Positions 42,234-51,269 of a DNA stretch of 64,000 bases are shown in pieces; position 1 is the stretch's first letter; every line of letters begins with the position of its first letter. Source of the stretch: Pacificimonas aurantium (GTDB lineage: Bacteria > Pseudomonadota > Alphaproteobacteria > Sphingomonadales > Sphingomonadaceae). The notes beneath the pieces are model-generated. The model saw only the letters and a program-made list of their open reading frames with translations. It was not told the DNA's origin and did no database searches. The stretch covers positions 868,001 to 932,000 of the forward strand of contig NZ_JAGSGB010000001.1 in NCBI RefSeq assembly GCF_020092905.1, given 5' to 3'. Made by a program: the position numbers and the translations under genes.

Positions 42234-43784
42234 TTACGCAACAATGCCATACAAATCGCGCAATCGTTGGGCGGCCGCCTCTTGCGCTAGTTGACCGACC
42301 CTGTCGGTTGGCAAGCCGCTAAAGTTCAGGTCACCCGAGCGCACTAGCCATGAATGGACTGCGCGCCTGGCGGTCACAGCGAACAGGGTTTCGACATACA
42401 GCTTCGCGCTGATGGAAAGTGAGCGCTCACCATCGCCGAAGCTTTTTATATTGAGCGGGGGGTCGAAACCCGGCCCCTCGAGCGAATCGACTAGGCCAAC
42501 AAATGCTTGCATGTCGTCCTGCAGCGAATGCAGCGGGCTCGCGATGGCCGCGGGGAACTTGCGGCGCAGGGAGGAGAGATTAGTTCCGGCCATTGCGAGG
42601 AACTGTCGCAAACAATCGCTTGGCTGATGGAGGGGGTCGAGTGAGGGCAACTCTGTTGGGTAGAAGGCAGCACTGTGCGGATCGTCGCCCAAACCGACAT
42701 GCGTGACGAGCCGTTCCCTCTCATTCAGCCACCAGCACATTGCCGGGGCGTTCTCTAGTCCGCCGCAAACCGGTTTGAAAGTCGCCAAGCCTGATACGAG
42801 CCGCTCGAACCTGCCGACCGGGTGAAATTCATCCCATGTGCAATCGAGCGGGGAACCATCGCTGGGAATCACCGGATTGAGAGCAATGTCGCATATCAGC
42901 AGGAACAGCTCGAAGAAGTGTGGAACGTCGTCGCCTGGGATGTGCTGCACATAGAAATTGAGCGCTTCGGTGTAGAGCGAATGACGCTTGTCCATGAATC
43001 GTTCGAGCGTTACCGCCAGTGCGCGGGCGCCGAACTCGACCGAACGTTCGTCCGGCAGCTGGCGGGCGAAATCGGCGTGGCAGAGATATTGCTCGACGAG
43101 CGCAGCCGCCTCTTCGATGTGACGGACCGTCAGCCGAGATTGGCGTGGAAAACTGGAAAACTCGTCGCTCGGGCCAAGCGCCAGCGTTGTCTTGAGAAAT
43201 GTCTCGTCGGGCGCATTGAAAACCGAACGCAGGTCCTCGCCTGCTGCCACATAGCGTAGGCCGAGCCCGACCATGAAACGCGGGTCAATGGGGCCGAGCA
43301 GTGGTATCCCATCGTCAATCAGAAAGTGCTCGAGCGCGACGGTCGCCCACCAATGGTCGAACAGGGACTGCACGGTGGTCGAATAGCCAAATGCGTGACG
43401 GAGTTGCCCCTGCCGATCACGCTGGGCAGGCGCAACGCCGCGATTTCTCTGATCCTTCAGCGCAGCGAGTTCCGCCGGAGTGGCTGTGGTCAGGATGGCA
43501 TCGGCGAGGTCGCCAGTGGTCACGCGATTGAAAGCAAGGAAGCGTCCAAAGCTGGTGCCCGCCAATTGTAGCCAGTGCAGCTGCTCATGGGTTCGCGCCG
43601 CGGCGGCGACGAAAATGCTAAGATCCGCTTCCTCAAGCAGTCGCATCTCGTCGTAGTCGAAACTTTGGACCTCGTCCGGGTATGCCGACAGATCGACGAA
43701 GAGGGTGTCTGGCCAGAAGCGGGCGCCAGCGGCGTTCTCGAACCTCGGATGAGGTTCGAAGGGGTCAATCTGCCTGGGCATCAT
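42234..43784 (-). CDS. Unrecognised protein with an HExxH motif
   Basis: A 516-residue protein of no family I can name. Residues 66-70 are HEQLH inside TRTHEQLHWLQLAG-like helical sequence (from RTHEQLHWLQLAGTSFG), the form of a zinc metallopeptidase active site. A third ligand cannot be fixed; a glutamate in LYTEALNFYVQH is one candidate. There are no membrane segments or signal peptide. The start overlaps the end of the 108-residue gene by 20 bases, so the two are translationally coupled. The neighbours (recombinase remnant, RloC-like ATPase) suggest a mobile or defence role, but the motif alone does not prove peptidase activity. Confidence 0.6.
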   Translation of the reverse strand: MMPRQIDPFEPHPRFENAAGARFWPDTLFVDLSAYPDEVQSFDYDEMRLLEEADLSIFVAAAARTHEQLHWLQLAGTSFGRFLAFNRVTTGDLADAILTTATPAELAALKDQRNRGVAPAQRDRQGQLRHAFGYSTTVQSLFDHWWATVALEHFLIDDGIPLLGPIDPRFMVGLGLRYVAAGEDLRSVFNAPDETFLKTTLALGPSDEFSSFPRQSRLTVRHIEEAAALVEQYLCHADFARQLPDERSVEFGARALAVTLERFMDKRHSLYTEALNFYVQHIPGDDVPHFFELFLLICDIALNPVIPSDGSPLDCTWDEFHPVGRFERLVSGLATFKPVCGGLENAPAMCWWLNERERLVTHVGLGDDPHSAAFYPTELPSLDPLHQPSDCLRQFLAMAGTNLSSLRRKFPAAIASPLHSLQDDMQAFVGLVDSLEGPGFDPPLNIKSFGDGERSLSISAKLYVETLFAVTARRAVHSWLVRSGDLNFSGLPTDRVGQLAQEAAAQRLRDLYGIVA

Positions 43785-44091
43785 CTACCATGACGCGTTC
43801 GCTTCCGAACCGCCTGATGAGCGCACTGCCAGCCTTTTTCATCAAGTCATAGGCGATCCCGCCAGCAGCCGCCTGTCCAACCCAGATCACTACGGTGAGG
43901 AAGGTGATGCCTTCTCCACGCTTGCTTGGGTCAAAGGGATCACCCGATGTGTCGATATGGGTTACACCGAGCATCTCCAGTTCGTCCGGCGACAGCTCCT
44001 CTCGAAGAGTTGCCAGCACCTCCTCTTCGCGGGCCTCGACGGAAATCTTCTCAATCAATCGTCCCACTCCCTTGCCGAAAGCGTCAGGCAT
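43765..44091 (-). CDS. Small unrecognised protein coupled to the HExxH protein
   Basis: A 108-residue protein. The first half is charged and helical (VGRLIEKISVEAREEEVL, LSPDELEMLGVTHID); the second half has one hydrophobic Gly/Ala-rich segment (ITFLTVVIWVGQAAAGGIAY) that could cross the membrane, then a basic end (KKAGSALIRRFGSER). Its stop lies inside the start of the downstream HExxH gene. GGACGA is close upstream of the ATG. Possible roles include a membrane effector, an anchor, or a regulator/substrate of the partner; none is supported by recognised homology. Confidence 0.55.
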   Translation of the reverse strand: MPDAFGKGVGRLIEKISVEAREEEVLATLREELSPDELEMLGVTHIDTSGDPFDPSKRGEGITFLTVVIWVGQAAAGGIAYDLMKKAGSALIRRFGSERVMVDDAQAD

Positions 44092-44488: not shown

Positions 44489-46741
44489 TTAAGCAGCGGA
44501 ACCCAGCTTTTTCAGGCTCTCATAATGCTCTGGGGCGACCGCCTGCACCATCTCGAGCAAATAGGCGACGTTCTTCTGCGTCTCGGCGACCAGCGCTGGA
44601 TCGAAGCCTTTGCCCGTGAAATGGGAAAGGTCGTTGGCGAACTTATAGATTGCAGTCTTTTTGTGCGGATCGAAATTAACCGCTTCCAGCTGAGCGTACA
44701 GCGTCCGCTCATGCGGCCGCTGGAATTCGAGAAAGGTCTCTAGCACTTTCCGCGCGATGTTGGGAATATGGTAGGATGCGACGATGGTGCCGTCCGACTC
44801 AAAGTCGTGAAGCAGTTTGAACAGGTAGCAATATTCGGTCGGATGGTCGCGCAGCAGCGGGTCGAGCGGCTTGAGCACAGCATCGCGGGAAGCGCCACTC
44901 TCGGTGCAGATGACCATATAGAGCGACTTGTCCGCTTTCCTGAAATGGCTGACCCAGTTCAATAGCAGCTTCAGGAAGTCGAAATTGTGGGTCAGGACGA
45001 AGACCTGCCGGGCATCCCTGACCGCGTTCTTGAGGAAGGAGAACGCTTGGTAGATTGACGCCGCGTCCATGCTAGAGATCGGGTCGTCGATCACCACTAT
45101 GCCCTCGGCGAGGTCGAAATCCTGATCGCCAAGCTGGACGATAAAATAGAGGAAGGCGATCGCGGTCTTTTCGCCTTCCGAGAGTCGCTTCGCCGGCCTT
45201 CCCCGGCGCTGCACATGATAGCCGTCAGTGCCGGATTTGAAGTGCAGGTCTGTGCGGCCGAGGAACGTCTTGAGGCGCTCAGTCAGCGCGGCGCCGCCGG
45301 CATGTTCGCTTGAGACCTTTGCCTGCTTCGCCTCGTAGGAGCCTTTGAGCACGGCTAGGCCGCGCGGGTCGGGCAGGTCCACCGCGCCGTCGGTCAAGCG
45401 CATGAAGAGCGCCTGCTGCCCAGCGATCTGGCGCTCGTGCTCGCGGACCTGGTCGACGATGGTCGAAAGATAATGAAGTTCGATGGCCTTGCGGGCTTCG
45501 CTCCGCGCGCGCTCGAATCCGGCGGTCTTGGCATTGTGGCGAGCGACGATCGCGGACACGGTCGTGATCGCAGCGGTCAGCGGCGCCGGATCGAGGGCTA
45601 TGTCGCGCTCATAAGCGGTCGCGCGATGGAGCAGCTTTTCATCAAGCAGCTCCAGCACCGCGTCCATCTCGGCCGCCAATGCCGACCGGCAGCGTTCGAC
45701 CGTCTCGCAGGCGGCGTCGAACTCGATCCGCAGCTCGCCATAGAGCGCGGTCCGCACGGGCAGCGCCAGAACGGCCAAGCCCTCTCCGAGCGCTAGGACC
45801 GTGCGGCGTGCGCTCTCGATGTCGGCTTTGAGTCGCTGGTCCTCGATGCCGAAATGCTGGGCGAGCCGCGCCATGCGCTCGGCCGGAAGCGGCTGATCGC
45901 AAAACTCGCAGCGATCCCAGCCGTGCTGGCCATGGATCGCGACGCCCTCCTCCACCCATCGCGCGACCTCCGGTTCCTCGACCAACCGGCGCAGCGCGCC
46001 TGCCTGCGCGGTGCGGGCGAGCAGCGCCGCGACCTGAGCGGGAAGTGCTTCAGTGACTTCGGCGAAGGCAGCGAACGGGGCATCGGATTTGGGCGGTGGC
46101 AACGGCAACTCGGGCTCCGTGACCGCGTCCAACTGCTCCTGATGGATCGTCGCTCGATGGGCTTCGAGGGAGGCTTCATCGAGCGTGGCGAACGCCTGCA
46201 CCTTGCCGAACGCCTTTTCGGCGTCGGGCTTGCGATAGCTGCGGAGTGTACTCCCGCTGGTCGCTTCGCCTATTGTCTTGGCAATCGCCGAAAAGATCTT
46301 GCCTTTGTCGGCGTCGAGCTTGGCCGCCGCCGCTTGCGCGGCGGTAATCGCGCGCGTCCGCTCATCGTATAGCGCCTTCTCGGTAGCGGCCTCCTCCGCG
46401 AGCGCCTTGTTCTCCTCACCGATGATGAGGATGTGGCGCAGCGGCCCTTGGAACTGTCCGATGTTCGCTTGGACATAGTCGGCGTTGAACACGCGGACCT
46501 TCCGGTCATAAGGCTGGCCCTGGGTCAGCGCACCCAACTGGCTATCGAGCGCATATTCGAGACCGGCGAACTCGGGATGGGTGCCAGTGTCCAGCACGGC
46601 GAACAAGCGCGACAGCGTCGTCTTGCCCGACCCGTTCTCGCCATAGATGATGTTGTAGCGCGCGAAGGGCGGCAAATCACTGGGCGCGGCGAAGTTGCCG
46701 AACACGCCCAAGCCCTTGATCCGCTTGACCCCGGTCAGCAT
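44489..46741 (-). CDS. AAA_13-family ATPase, RloC/PrrC-like candidate anticodon nuclease
   Basis: A 750-residue SMC-like ATPase. The start at 46741 overlaps the upstream regulator stop. Walker A is GENGSGKTT at 34-42, the ABC signature is LSEGEK at 520-525 and Walker B is GIVVIDDPISSMDA near 545-555. The long charged middle carries a zinc-hook-like CEFC (Cys278, Cys281), as in RloC. After the ATPase core, R664-x3-E668 (ARKVLETF) and H707 (FANDLSHFTG) fit the Arg-Glu-His arrangement of the PrrC/RloC tRNA-anticodon nuclease. RloC cleaves tRNA upon DNA damage or phage recovery and blocks translation. The family (PF13166) is clear; nuclease activity is inferred from three residues and needs testing. 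Confidence 0.85.
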   Translation of the reverse strand: MLTGVKRIKGLGVFGNFAAPSDLPPFARYNIIYGENGSGKTTLSRLFAVLDTGTHPEFAGLEYALDSQLGALTQGQPYDRKVRVFNADYVQANIGQFQGPLRHILIIGEENKALAEEAATEKALYDERTRAITAAQAAAAKLDADKGKIFSAIAKTIGEATSGSTLRSYRKPDAEKAFGKVQAFATLDEASLEAHRATIHQEQLDAVTEPELPLPPPKSDAPFAAFAEVTEALPAQVAALLARTAQAGALRRLVEEPEVARWVEEGVAIHGQHGWDRCEFCDQPLPAERMARLAQHFGIEDQRLKADIESARRTVLALGEGLAVLALPVRTALYGELRIEFDAACETVERCRSALAAEMDAVLELLDEKLLHRATAYERDIALDPAPLTAAITTVSAIVARHNAKTAGFERARSEARKAIELHYLSTIVDQVREHERQIAGQQALFMRLTDGAVDLPDPRGLAVLKGSYEAKQAKVSSEHAGGAALTERLKTFLGRTDLHFKSGTDGYHVQRRGRPAKRLSEGEKTAIAFLYFIVQLGDQDFDLAEGIVVIDDPISSMDAASIYQAFSFLKNAVRDARQVFVLTHNFDFLKLLLNWVSHFRKADKSLYMVICTESGASRDAVLKPLDPLLRDHPTEYCYLFKLLHDFESDGTIVASYHIPNIARKVLETFLEFQRPHERTLYAQLEAVNFDPHKKTAIYKFANDLSHFTGKGFDPALVAETQKNVAYLLEMVQAVAPEHYESLKKLGSAA

Positions 46742-47499
46742 GGCGCGCCCTGCTTTTCGACGAAGGCCGACCAAGCGGGCAGTACAAAGGGCTGGCCGTG
46801 GTCGACTGGTACTTTCATGCTCGTCTCGCCGTATTCACAGGGCGGCCCGAACGCGACCGTGAGGCGGAACTCCATTGTAGAAGGCTCGCCAGCTGGCGGG
46901 AGATCGTAGCGCTCGGGCAATCGTCGCAGCACCCTCGCCTGATAAATCCAGATGTCATTGCCGCGCAGCAGGACAATCAATTCACGAAGCCGGCGGCGCG
47001 TAGCGATCTGGTCGGAGGCGGGAATGTCGTGGCGAATATCGCGCTGGGACCAGGTTAGCGCGGTCAGCATGTCGACTATATCCTGAACATAGGTGCCGGT
47101 CTCGGGGTTCAGCGGCACCTCAATTACGCAAGCGAGATCGTGCGCGTTGCTGGCCTCCTTGTAGAGCGCGCCGTCGTCTGATGTTACTTGGGCATATTCC
47201 CAATCATGTCGTGGGATGAGTTTCTCCTTGTCGAAGTCCGTCCGCGGGCCGTCGTCCGTGCGCGCCATGGCGGCCAACGGAGTCGGCAGGGTAAGTGTGA
47301 TGGCTTTCCGATGGACGCCAAGGAGCTTGGCGATACGATCAAGTAACACCGGGGCGATCAGGGCATTTTCATTCTCGATCTTGCGCAACATTCGCACGCT
47401 GACAGCGATTTCGTTCGCCATCTCTTTCTGTGTGGATAGGCGTTCAAGCTCTAGGCGTAAATGCTTGATCAGATCGCCTCTTGGAATGATCTTCTTCAT
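46735..47499 (-). CDS. XRE-like helix-turn-helix regulator coupled to the AAA_13 ATPase
   Basis: A 254-residue protein; the ATG at 47499 follows GGGGAATTCG. Residues 1-65 are an XRE-type helix-turn-helix (LRLELERLSTQKEMANEIAV, SVRMLRKIENENALIAPVLL, DRIAKLLGVHRKAI). The remaining 190 residues are an unrecognised domain with YEASNAHDLACVIEVPLN-like sequence and a strand-rich end (MEFRLTVAFGPPCEYGE). Its stop overlaps the ATPase start by 7 bases, so expression is coupled. Likely it represses its own operon and may sense the condition that activates the ATPase; the C-terminal domain could bind a ligand. This arrangement is not the usual stand-alone rloC. Confidence 0.75.
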   Translation of the reverse strand: MKKIIPRGDLIKHLRLELERLSTQKEMANEIAVSVRMLRKIENENALIAPVLLDRIAKLLGVHRKAITLTLPTPLAAMARTDDGPRTDFDKEKLIPRHDWEYAQVTSDDGALYKEASNAHDLACVIEVPLNPETGTYVQDIVDMLTALTWSQRDIRHDIPASDQIATRRRLRELIVLLRGNDIWIYQARVLRRLPERYDLPPAGEPSTMEFRLTVAFGPPCEYGETSMKVPVDHGQPFVLPAWSAFVEKQGAPC

Positions 47500-47899
47500 C
47501 GAATTCCCCGACATCAGTATTGCGCGTTTCGATCTACACGACAATCCGAATGAACAGGCGGCACGCGACCGGACGGCGAGCGGCACAAGCAGCACCATTG
47601 GACCGTACATACAGATTGGTCAGCAGAGGTTCTTGCCGATTGCCAATGCTCGGGCCGTGAGCCTATCAGATTGGTGATCGTCCGCTTTTGGGTGCCGTCG
47701 CTTCAGGCCAAGATGTCCGACATTGGGGCGCGTAGGGGACCGGCGGTTCGTGGGGCTTCAGCGGACGGTCCGCTATGAGTCTAATGGGGCCGAACCGAGA
47801 CTAAGCGATACCCCCTGGTGTGGACGGCGCCATTTCTGGCAGTTCCCTCTCCGAAACCAAAATGCCGCCCATTCGCTGAATTGGCGAACGGAGGATTAG
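47500..47899. other. Intergenic divergent region between the XRE gene and ku
   Basis: 400 bases between divergent starts. It includes repeat copy R2 (47680-47740) and, just before ku, a small inverted repeat TTCGC (47872-47876) and GCGAA (47884-47888). No protein-coding frame is supported. Promoters for both directions must lie here but I could not fix hexamers. Confidence 0.5.
47680..47740. repeat. Dispersed inverted-repeat element, copy R2
   Basis: CCGCTTTTGGG (47682-47692), 29 bases, then ATTGGGGCGC (47722-47731), ending GTAGGGGAC. The outer arm GTCCGCTTT pairs partly with GTAGGGGAC (6 of 9). Spacing and core are the same as in copy R1. Confidence 0.6.
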
Positions 47900-48739
47900 A
47901 TGGCGGCACGCGCATATTGGCAAGGACAAATCAGGCTCGCCCTCGTTTCAATTCCGGTCGAGATATTCTCGGCTAGCAAATCCGGCGCGAAGATCCGGTT
48001 CAATCAGATTCACGAACCGAGCGGAAAGCGGATCAAGTACGAGAAGAGCGTTCCTGGAGTCGGCCCGGTTGATCGCGATGAGATCATCAAGGGCTACGAG
48101 ATTTCGAAGGGCGAGTACATCTTGCTCGAAGACGAGGAGATCGAAGCGGTGAAGATCGAGAGTCGGAAGACACTCGAACTCGTCCAGTTTGTCGAGGCGT
48201 GCGAGATCGACCCGCTCTACTTCGAGAAACCCTATTATGTCGCGCCGAAGGACGATCTTGCCGAAGAGGCCTTCGTCGTGCTGCGAGAGGCTCTGCGAAA
48301 ATCGAAAAAGGTGGCGCTGGGGCAATTGTCGGTCCGCGGGAGCGAGAAGCTCGTCGCGCTCAAGCCGTGCGGCAAAGGCCTGCTGCTCGAAACGCTGCGT
48401 TACGCCGACGAGGTGCGCAAGGGTCAAGACTTCTTTGAAGATATCGACGAGGCGAAGCCGAAAAAGGAGCTGCTCGATCTCGCGACGACGCTGATCGAAG
48501 AGAAAAGCGCGCCGTTTGATGCGAGCGAGTTCGAGGACCGCTATGTCGATGCACTGAGAGAGCTGATCGACAAGAAGGCGAAATCTAGGAGCAAGAAGGC
48601 GATCGTCACGGACGTCGACGAGCCCGACGGCGGCGACGGTGGAAACGTGATCGACCTGATGGCCGCACTAAAGAAGTCGGTCGGGGAGAAGAAATCGTCG
48701 AGCGGCAAGTCGCGTTCGAAACGCAAAAAGAGCGCGTGA
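47900..48739 (+). CDS. ku: Ku protein for non-homologous end joining
   Basis: A 279-residue bacterial Ku with GGAGGATTAG before the ATG. The core begins YWQGQIRLALVSIPVEIFSA and includes VPGVGPVDRDEIIKGYEISK and ETLRYADEVR, diagnostic of the family. The C-terminus is a Lys/Ser-rich tail (KSVGEKKSSSGKSRSKRKK), typical of bacterial Ku tails that bind DNA and recruit LigD. Ku binds double-strand ends as a homodimer. ligD starts one base after its stop, so the two form a complete minimal end-joining operon. Confidence 0.97.
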   Translation: MAARAYWQGQIRLALVSIPVEIFSASKSGAKIRFNQIHEPSGKRIKYEKSVPGVGPVDRDEIIKGYEISKGEYILLEDEEIEAVKIESRKTLELVQFVEACEIDPLYFEKPYYVAPKDDLAEEAFVVLREALRKSKKVALGQLSVRGSEKLVALKPCGKGLLLETLRYADEVRKGQDFFEDIDEAKPKKELLDLATTLIEEKSAPFDASEFEDRYVDALRELIDKKAKSRSKKAIVTDVDEPDGGDGGNVIDLMAALKKSVGEKKSSSGKSRSKRKKSA

Positions 48740-48740
48740 T

Positions 48741-51269
48741 ATGGCGGCCCAGGGCAAGCCTTTCGATCCGCTTGCGACTTACAATGCCAAGCGCGATTTC
48801 GAGAAGTCGCCCGAACCGCCTGGTGCGGCACGAAGCAGCAAGAGCGGCGATCTCTTCATAGTGCAGAAGCACGACGCCTCTCGGCTACATTGGGACCTGC
48901 GTCTCGAAGTCGACGGCGTGCTCAAGAGCTGGGCGGTAACCAAGGGGCCCTCGCCGGATCCGGACATCAAGCGGCTGGCGGTGCGGACCGAGGACCACCC
49001 GATGTCCTACGCCGAGTTCGAAGGTACGATCCCAACGGGCGAATATGGCGGCGGCACGGTGATGCTTTGGGATCGCGGAAGCTGGGCCCCGATTGAGGGA
49101 AAGAGCGCTAAGGATCTCGATAAGGGGCATTTGCATTTCTGCCTCGAAGGCGAGCGGATGCGGGGCGAGTGGTTGCTCATCAGGCTCAGGAAGAAACCAG
49201 GCGAAAGGCGCGAAAACTGGCTTCTGCGTAAACTGCAGGATGACCACGCCCAGAAAGGCGACATGCTGGTCGAACGCGAACTAACCAGCGTGCTGTCCGG
49301 GCGATCGATGGCCGAGATCGCGGCCGAGAAGAGAGGCGGAAACCCGTTTGCGCGGAAGAAGGGCAAGGCATTCCTCGAACAGATGGAAAAGCCTTCGGCG
49401 CAAAGTGCCAAGAAGGCCAGCGCCTGCAGAAAGCGAAAATCTGCGCCCCTTCCGAAATTTGCCAAGCCCCAGTTGGCGACACTCGTCGACGACGTTCCCG
49501 CCGGTAACGGGTGGATGCACGAGATAAAGTTTGACGGGTACAGGACGATGATCGCGGCCAAGGGCAGCGACGTGCGCGTCTCTACGCGCAGCGGCAAGGA
49601 CTGGACCGACAAGTTTGCACCGCTTGTCGAGGCAATCGCGACGCTCCATCTTCCGGCCTGCCTGATCGACGGCGAGATCGTCGCCTACGACGGAAACGGC
49701 AACCCCGATTTCTCGACCCTGCAGCGCGTCCTGAAGCGCGGCCATGGCAGCCAGTCAAAGAGCAATGAGCTCTCTCTCCACGCCTTCGATCTGTTGTCGC
49801 TCGACGGCGAGGATCTGACCAGGCTGCCCAATATCGAGCGCAAAGAGCATCTCGAAGCGCTGCTATCCACCGCCGAGCCGCCGATCCATGTCGCCGATCA
49901 TCTCATTGGCGCGGGAGAAAAGCTTTACGATTCCATGTGCAGAGCCGGGCAGGAAGGCATCATCGCCAAGAAAATCGATGCGCCCTATCGCCATTCGCGT
50001 AGCAAGGCGTGGGTGAAGGTCAAATGCACCCGGCGGCAGGAATTCGTGATCGTGGGGTGGAAGGCAAGCAAGGCGAAGGGGCGTCCGTTCGCCTCCCTGC
50101 TGATGGCCCAGCATGAAGGCGATGAACTGGTCTACAAGGGCAATGTCGGCACCGGGTTCACCAACGACGACCTCGATGAGCTGGCGGCAAAGATGAAACG
50201 GCTGGAGCGCAAGACGCCGCCGGTGAAGACCGACGAGACGAGCGCGCGCCTCGTCACCTGGCTTACGCCGAAGCTGGTCGCCGAAGTGGCCTTCGCCGAA
50301 TTCACCGCCAACGGGAATATCCGCCATGGCAGCTATCTCGGCCTGAGGAGCGACAAGGACGCGGCATCGGTAACGCCGGAAACGGCCGCACTGGCCCCGA
50401 AGCCAGCCGTCGCCATCAGCATCTCCAGCCGCGACCGCGTGGTCTTTCCCGATACCGGCCAGACCAAGGGCGAGCTTGCCGATTACTATACCGCCATCGC
50501 GCCGCTCATGCTCCCTTTTGCCGGGCGGCGCCCGATCAGCCTGGTGCGCTGCCCGCAGGGACGCGCGAAGAAATGCTTCTTCCAGAAGCACGATAGCGGC
50601 GCCTTCGGCGATGCTGTCCACCTTGTCCCGATCCGCGAGAAGGACGGCGGGACCGAGGACTATCTCTATGTCGCGGACGCGCGCGGCATCCTTCAATGCG
50701 TGCAGATGGGGACGATCGAATTCCACGGCTGGGGCTCGCGCAGCGACGATGTCGAGGCACCAGACCGAATGGTATTCGATCTCGACCCCGACGAAAGTCT
50801 GGATTTCAACGACGTCAAACAAGCGGCGCATGACATTCAGGCTCGGCTGTCCGATATCGGGCTTGTCAGCTTCGCTCTGCTTTCGGGCGGGAAGGGGGTG
50901 CACGTCGTGGTGCCCCTCAAAACCGGTCACTCATGGGGCGAGCACAAGGATTTTGCGCGCCGCTTCGCCCAAGCGCTGAGCATTGCGGAACCCGATCGCT
51001 TCACGGCCACGACGAGCAAGGCGAAGCGCAAGGGAAAGATATTCATCGACTGGCTGCGCAATCAGCGCGGCAGCACTGCCGTCGTCCCCTACTCCGTTCG
51101 CGCCCGCCCTGGCGCACCGGTGGCGGCGCCGATCGCCTGGCACGAGCTGAAATCGATGACGCAGCACCAGTCTTTTTCGATCGATGACGCTAAGCGTCTA
51201 CTTGATCGTGCGCACAGCAAGACCCTGACTGGCTGGGGTTTCGCCGACCAAACACTGCCGGACGTATGA
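48741..51269 (+). CDS. ligD: Multidomain ATP-dependent DNA ligase D
   Basis: An 842-residue protein with domains in the order phosphoesterase, ligase, polymerase. The phosphoesterase (about 35-170) shows QKHDASRLHWDLRLEVDG with His44, Asp45 and His50 and later EYGGGTVMLWDRG. The ligase has the nucleotidyl lysine in EIKFDGYR (Lys263) and ends near residue 545. The polymerase/primase (about 560-842) has SLVRCPQGRAKKCFFQKH and the metal-binding FDLDPDES (Asp680, Asp682). LigD trims, fills and seals ends brought together by Ku. The order is that of Pseudomonas LigD, not the mycobacterial one. Lys-rich linkers separate the domains. Confidence 0.97.
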   Translation: MAAQGKPFDPLATYNAKRDFEKSPEPPGAARSSKSGDLFIVQKHDASRLHWDLRLEVDGVLKSWAVTKGPSPDPDIKRLAVRTEDHPMSYAEFEGTIPTGEYGGGTVMLWDRGSWAPIEGKSAKDLDKGHLHFCLEGERMRGEWLLIRLRKKPGERRENWLLRKLQDDHAQKGDMLVERELTSVLSGRSMAEIAAEKRGGNPFARKKGKAFLEQMEKPSAQSAKKASACRKRKSAPLPKFAKPQLATLVDDVPAGNGWMHEIKFDGYRTMIAAKGSDVRVSTRSGKDWTDKFAPLVEAIATLHLPACLIDGEIVAYDGNGNPDFSTLQRVLKRGHGSQSKSNELSLHAFDLLSLDGEDLTRLPNIERKEHLEALLSTAEPPIHVADHLIGAGEKLYDSMCRAGQEGIIAKKIDAPYRHSRSKAWVKVKCTRRQEFVIVGWKASKAKGRPFASLLMAQHEGDELVYKGNVGTGFTNDDLDELAAKMKRLERKTPPVKTDETSARLVTWLTPKLVAEVAFAEFTANGNIRHGSYLGLRSDKDAASVTPETAALAPKPAVAISISSRDRVVFPDTGQTKGELADYYTAIAPLMLPFAGRRPISLVRCPQGRAKKCFFQKHDSGAFGDAVHLVPIREKDGGTEDYLYVADARGILQCVQMGTIEFHGWGSRSDDVEAPDRMVFDLDPDESLDFNDVKQAAHDIQARLSDIGLVSFALLSGGKGVHVVVPLKTGHSWGEHKDFARRFAQALSIAEPDRFTATTSKAKRKGKIFIDWLRNQRGSTAVVPYSVRARPGAPVAAPIAWHELKSMTQHQSFSIDDAKRLLDRAHSKTLTGWGFADQTLPDV

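Follow-up and report, generated by a model that had tools for sequence, protein, structure and literature searches.

The window, a stretch of 64,000 nucleotides of Pacificimonas aurantium, carries two overlapping genes on its minus strand. The upstream gene (46735..47499) encodes an XRE-type regulator of 254 aa, and the downstream gene (44489..46741) an RloC-like ABC ATPase of 750 aa. The ATG of the ATPase gene lies at 46741 and the stop codon of the XRE gene ends at 46735, so that the two genes have seven bases in common (46735..46741, minus strand; ATGCTGA). After the ATPase gene, on the same strand (42234-44091), a 108-aa gene overlaps one of 516 aa whose product has an HEQLH (HExxH) motif. 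Neither of these gave a match in Pfam, PADLOC or NCBIfam, and they possibly form a second two-gene unit. On the plus strand, divergent to the XRE gene, lie Ku- and LigD-like (NHEJ) genes (47900-51269). Ku-LigD was considered as a functional partner of the pair and dropped, as no match was found near the other XRE loci searched.

The ATPase matched Pfam AAA_13 (E 1.7e-119) and, over its full length, PADLOC PDC-S06 (E 6.7e-276), a candidate defence class listed as a single gene; its residues 520-725 also matched the PADLOC profile for PrrC (E 6.6e-11). The ABC head contains a Walker A motif with K40 as its lysine, the ABC signature around S521 (LSEGE), Walker B residues D552/D553, and H585. A zinc-hook-like pair, Cys278-x2-Cys281, is encoded at 45899..45910 (minus strand). 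At the C-terminal end, the alignments and the PrrC profile comparison placed a triad, N661..R664-x3-E668-x38-S706-H707, with the codons for Arg664-x3-Glu668 at 44738..44752 and those for Ser706-His707 at 44621..44626 (both minus strand). This lies inside the rule published for RloC, R-x3-E-x36-52-H with Ser often preceding His (PMC2610378); the corresponding residues of the Geobacillus kaustophilus protein, R692/E696/H737, were confirmed by mutation (PMC2610378). The Walker A motif, ABC signature, cysteine pair and R-E-H residues named in an earlier note on this DNA are thus all present, and their residue numbers are exact.

Conservation of these positions was examined in 35 diverse relatives, with identity down to 17%. 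The cysteine pair and the ABC residues were invariant throughout, R664 was kept in 33 of the 35 and E668 in 31 (E or D in 34), while S706 was kept in 27 and H707 in 24; the exceptions in the triad and the Ser fall in distant rows (<20% identity). In the eight nearest relatives N661, R664, E668, S706, H707 and C278/C281 were all invariant.

For a direct comparison with PrrC, proteins were collected by the PADLOC profile, and four clear PrrC ORFs were aligned. In hhalign the AAA_13 family matched these with a probability of 94% (E 1.4e-7), and the columns holding R664/E668/S706-H707 were paired with the R-x3-E and SH of PrrC. The AF2 model of the ATPase (mean pLDDT 85) predicted long helices on both sides of the CxxC pair (109-162 before it; 299-323, 335-371 and 386-477 after it), and the CxxC would be the apex of a putative zinc hook that splits the ABC head. 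The C-terminal helices (637-650, 659-674, 692-704, 715-735 and 737-748) are compatible with a HEPN fold, the class to which PrrC and RloC have been assigned (PMC3710099). In the model R664 and E668 lie one turn apart in helix 659-674, and H707 directly after helix 692-704, positions that would allow the triad to assemble. With this model Foldseek returned SMC, cohesin and Rad50 heads as the best PDB matches, the C-terminal domain not being picked out, and a PDB sequence search found no solved relative of RloC or PrrC. The RloC-like architecture proposed earlier, an ABC ATPase with an anticodon-nuclease (HEPN) domain, is therefore supported by the sequence, by the profile-profile comparison with PrrC and by the predicted all-helical C-terminal domain.

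The ATPase resembles the RloC proteins of G. kaustophilus and Acinetobacter baylyi (PMC2610378, PMC3874168) in its split ABC head, its helical insert with CxxC, its triad (here with x38 and Ser before His) and the lack of a link to restriction-modification. It differs in its setting: descriptions of the studied RloCs give an internal switch but no transcription factor coupled to the gene, whereas here the gene is coupled to an XRE gene preceded by an operator-like array. The ABC motifs and the R/E/SH nuclease residues also align with PrrC; however, in PrrC there is no zinc-hook coiled coil, and the protein is held by a type I R-M enzyme (PMC2610378). Among the neighbours of the ATPase gene that were examined, no hsd genes of such an enzyme were recognised, and this, together with the CxxC pair, argues against identifying the ATPase as PrrC.

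These data also bear on whether the ATPase is a tRNase at all. It could instead be an ABC effector that senses DNA ends, with a C-terminal domain that cuts other RNA or is inactive. HEPN domains cut varied RNAs (PMC3710099), His707 is not kept in the most distant AAA_13 rows, and PDC-S06 is a candidate class only. On the other hand, the near family keeps the complete triad, its RloC spacing and the Ser before His without exception, and these residues align with PrrC; we consider this explanation rather unlikely.

The regulator matched HTH_3 in residues 15-63 (E 1.1e-4), just below the cut-off (22.7 vs 23 bits). HTH matches were confined to the region near the N-terminus, and residues ~70-254 had no family match among the Pfam, PADLOC and NCBIfam profiles, in agreement with the earlier description of the C-terminal domain as unrecognised. 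This domain is rare, and it contains many residues (GNDIWIY, LPER, E-x-GE, D-x-GQP) that are invariant regardless of the partner gene. The MKK start is kept in most XRE homologues, and M-K/R-K/Q/R in all of them. An AF2 model built from 13 sequences was unusable (pLDDT 47).

To place the regulator more widely, 84,980 species genomes were scanned for exact matches to two conserved XRE peptides; because exact peptides are required, distant XREs are missed. The scan gave 17 loci, and with one from G787 and the window the total was 19, some of them near-identical. Full-length matches occurred in two of 398 genomes of the same family (window included); in the class sample matches were found in two of 385 genomes, and in the phylum sample in one of 398. 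No relative of the XRE was found in a single-protein scan of viral contigs, no relative of the ATPase in the first A2 scan, and tblastn of three XREs against plasmids gave no match.

In eight of these loci (the window, L011, L116, L022, L023, L024, L026 and L027) an RloC-like gene directly follows the XRE gene, and in all eight the junction is -7, 0 or +6 nt. Although PDC-S06 is listed as a single-gene class, the XRE leads it throughout this subset. Junctions equivalent to the seven-base overlap of the window were found in L011 (-7 nt), L024 (0) and L022 (+6 nt). The locus of G787 belongs to another taxonomic family and adjoins apparent conjugation genes. The independent lineages number about four, which is a small sample. 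The recurrence of this tight coupling across all eight XRE-RloC loci found is new here, as are the operator-like array, the variety of ABC partners and the close relatives without an XRE that are described below; the matches of a literature search for RloC with XRE concerned other subjects, as judged by title and abstract. Rarity of the XRE, with its two matches per 398 genomes of the family, would suit a chance neighbourhood of the two genes, but the conserved junctions contradict this idea, as do the eight coupled loci, which span about four lineages and include one in another family; it is left extremely improbable.

Upstream of the XRE gene, TGCCG-type half-sites spaced by about 11 bp form an array (47559..47596, minus strand; from 60 to 97 nt ahead of the XRE start), with a perfect core match at 47560-47585. 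In all six lineages compared, TGCCG half-sites recur between 60 and 100 nt ahead of the XRE start, in steps of about 10-11 nt (about one helical turn). They lie at -94, -83, -73 and -62 in L022 and L024, at -100, -89 and -78 in L025, and at -86, (-75) and -64 in the window, where the first half-site is degenerate (TGCTG, spacing 9). The six lineages contain 20 TGCCG copies, compared with a mean of 1.06 and a maximum of 7 in 2000 Markov shuffles. Since the loci are related, the flanks are a better control than the shuffles: mean pairwise identity was 0.52 in the array and 0.25-0.28 in the flanks on either side, which are unalignable. In a pattern scan of its own 3.35-Mb genome the core pattern had no other perfect copy, and weaker matches were close to background, with 34 against 15 in the reversed control. 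The single perfect copy suggests that the XRE is probably dedicated to its own locus. We infer from its sequence features that the array is an operator footprint, the putative XRE site. Together with the close junction in every XRE-RloC locus found, the operator-like array upstream supports the proposal that the regulator is dedicated to the ATPase gene and translationally coupled to it.

The direction of control may be asked. Small autoregulated XREs of defence and toxin-antitoxin loci mostly repress, which argues against the XRE being an activator, or a phage- or damage-responsive switch that turns the operon on, with the C-terminal domain sensing the signal. Such a role would fit the large conserved C-terminal domain with its invariant residues whatever the partner, and the position of the array, as activators too may sit 60-100 nt ahead of a start codon. 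The XRE has no family or structural match that would favour it, however, and activation appears quite unlikely.

A Rad50/SMC-like ABC ATPase lies downstream of the XRE in 19 of 19 loci, and the array is present whichever ABC gene comes after the XRE. These ATPases are of three kinds, and the suggestion that the XRE domain might always travel with AAA_13 genes did not hold, as the same XRE family precedes two other types of ABC ATPase besides the RloC-like one. In ten loci (L012-L021) the XRE gene is followed by a 74-aa gene and then by a gene for an 829-aa LmuB-like ABC ATPase; these loci also contain a 192-aa gene in divergent orientation and, if the contig extends far enough, the Hachiman genes HamA/HamB. 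In L025, genes for SbcD-like and AAA_27 proteins lie downstream, and MzaB/MzaC upstream.

The 829-aa protein shares with the ATPase of the window the upstream XRE family and array, and its C-terminal end has an invariant R-x3-E and N-x2-SH. It differs in its distant ATPase, in the extra 74-aa gene and in a spacing of 71 residues from E to H, and in hhalign against AAA_13 the ATPase part alone was aligned. That the 829-aa protein may be an ABC-nuclease too is a lead taken from these motifs. L012-L021 are adjoined by ORFs resembling integrase and RadC, and L142 contains a small gene and an ABC gene of the 829-aa type without this XRE. The deep branching among the XRE groups was not resolved by the tree.

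Some RloC-like genes (L006, L007, L008 and L029) lack the XRE; they are 53-65% identical and come from Sphingobium plasmids and from G342. The gene of L006, on a Sphingobium plasmid, is 65% identical; in the tree it groups with the branch of the window and L011 (support 100/99; position inside the branch 83/89). Three further plasmid AAA_13 genes had no annotated HTH gene coupled to them. The RloC-like gene of L006 (1-4561) has YhaN-family and DNA repair exonuclease genes as neighbours, a pair of the kind found after the XRE in L025. On two viral contigs (L034:642-1391 and L036:2584-3576) the RloC-like gene has a 4-nt overlap with another upstream ORF, of 249 and 330 aa respectively, apparently unlike the XRE. 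In two genomes of the family (L117, L118), an epimerase-like ORF and the gene next to it are found near the RloC-like gene whether the XRE is present or not, and this site is a possible insertion hotspot. A copy of the RloC-like gene on a Neorhizobium galegae plasmid (L009:5001-7183) is split into several frames.

The earlier note had suggested a toxin-antitoxin-like pair. By this account, the XRE would bind and neutralise the nuclease as in type II systems, and its loss or degradation would free the toxin. Type II operons with XRE antitoxins typically place a small DNA-binding gene first and the toxin second, couple the two in translation and have a conserved operator, and the locus resembles them in gene order, coupling and operator. 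It differs from them in that the XRE is absent from close relatives, L006 in the branch of the window as well as L007, L008 and L029, which favours a regulator over an obligatory antitoxin. Moreover, the same XRE precedes unrelated ABC partners, an ill fit for a specific neutraliser, and the studied RloC has an internal switch (PMC3874168). The suggestion is weakened by these results, and we now regard it as unlikely.

We therefore favour, with a probability of about two in three, the interpretation that the pair is an anti-phage unit in which an RloC-type suicide nuclease stands under an autoregulating XRE. In the ATPase, a coiled coil with CxxC at its apex would split the Rad50-like ABC head, and a C-terminal HEPN-type nuclease would carry the R-E-H triad. 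If the analogy with studied RloCs holds, the protein would be silenced by its own coiled coil and switched on by DNA ends, upon which it would cut tRNA anticodon loops and translation would stop. The XRE would bind the phased half-sites upstream of its own gene and repress the bicistronic message, and the overlapping or abutting stop and start codons would tie nuclease synthesis to repressor synthesis. Nuclease levels would thus be kept low, with release when the XRE is titrated or its C-terminal domain, the presumed receiver of the signal, is signalled.

A broader reading, which we offer as tentative, treats the XRE together with its phased half-site operator as a control cassette that is portable and serves three kinds of DNA-sensing ABC ATPase (the RloC-type nuclease, the Hachiman-linked ABC protein and the SbcD-like/AAA_27 proteins beside Mza); the C-terminal domain of the XRE would respond to an infection or damage signal common to them. 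The safe carriage of RloC-type suicide nucleases has so far been explained by the internal coiled-coil switch, and a coupled regulator acting at its own defined operator would add control at the level of transcription. Should the cassette prove common to the RloC-, Hachiman- and Mza-linked ABC genes, this would point to shared control over the expression of DNA-damage-sensing immunity, with the XRE gene as a marker for new systems.
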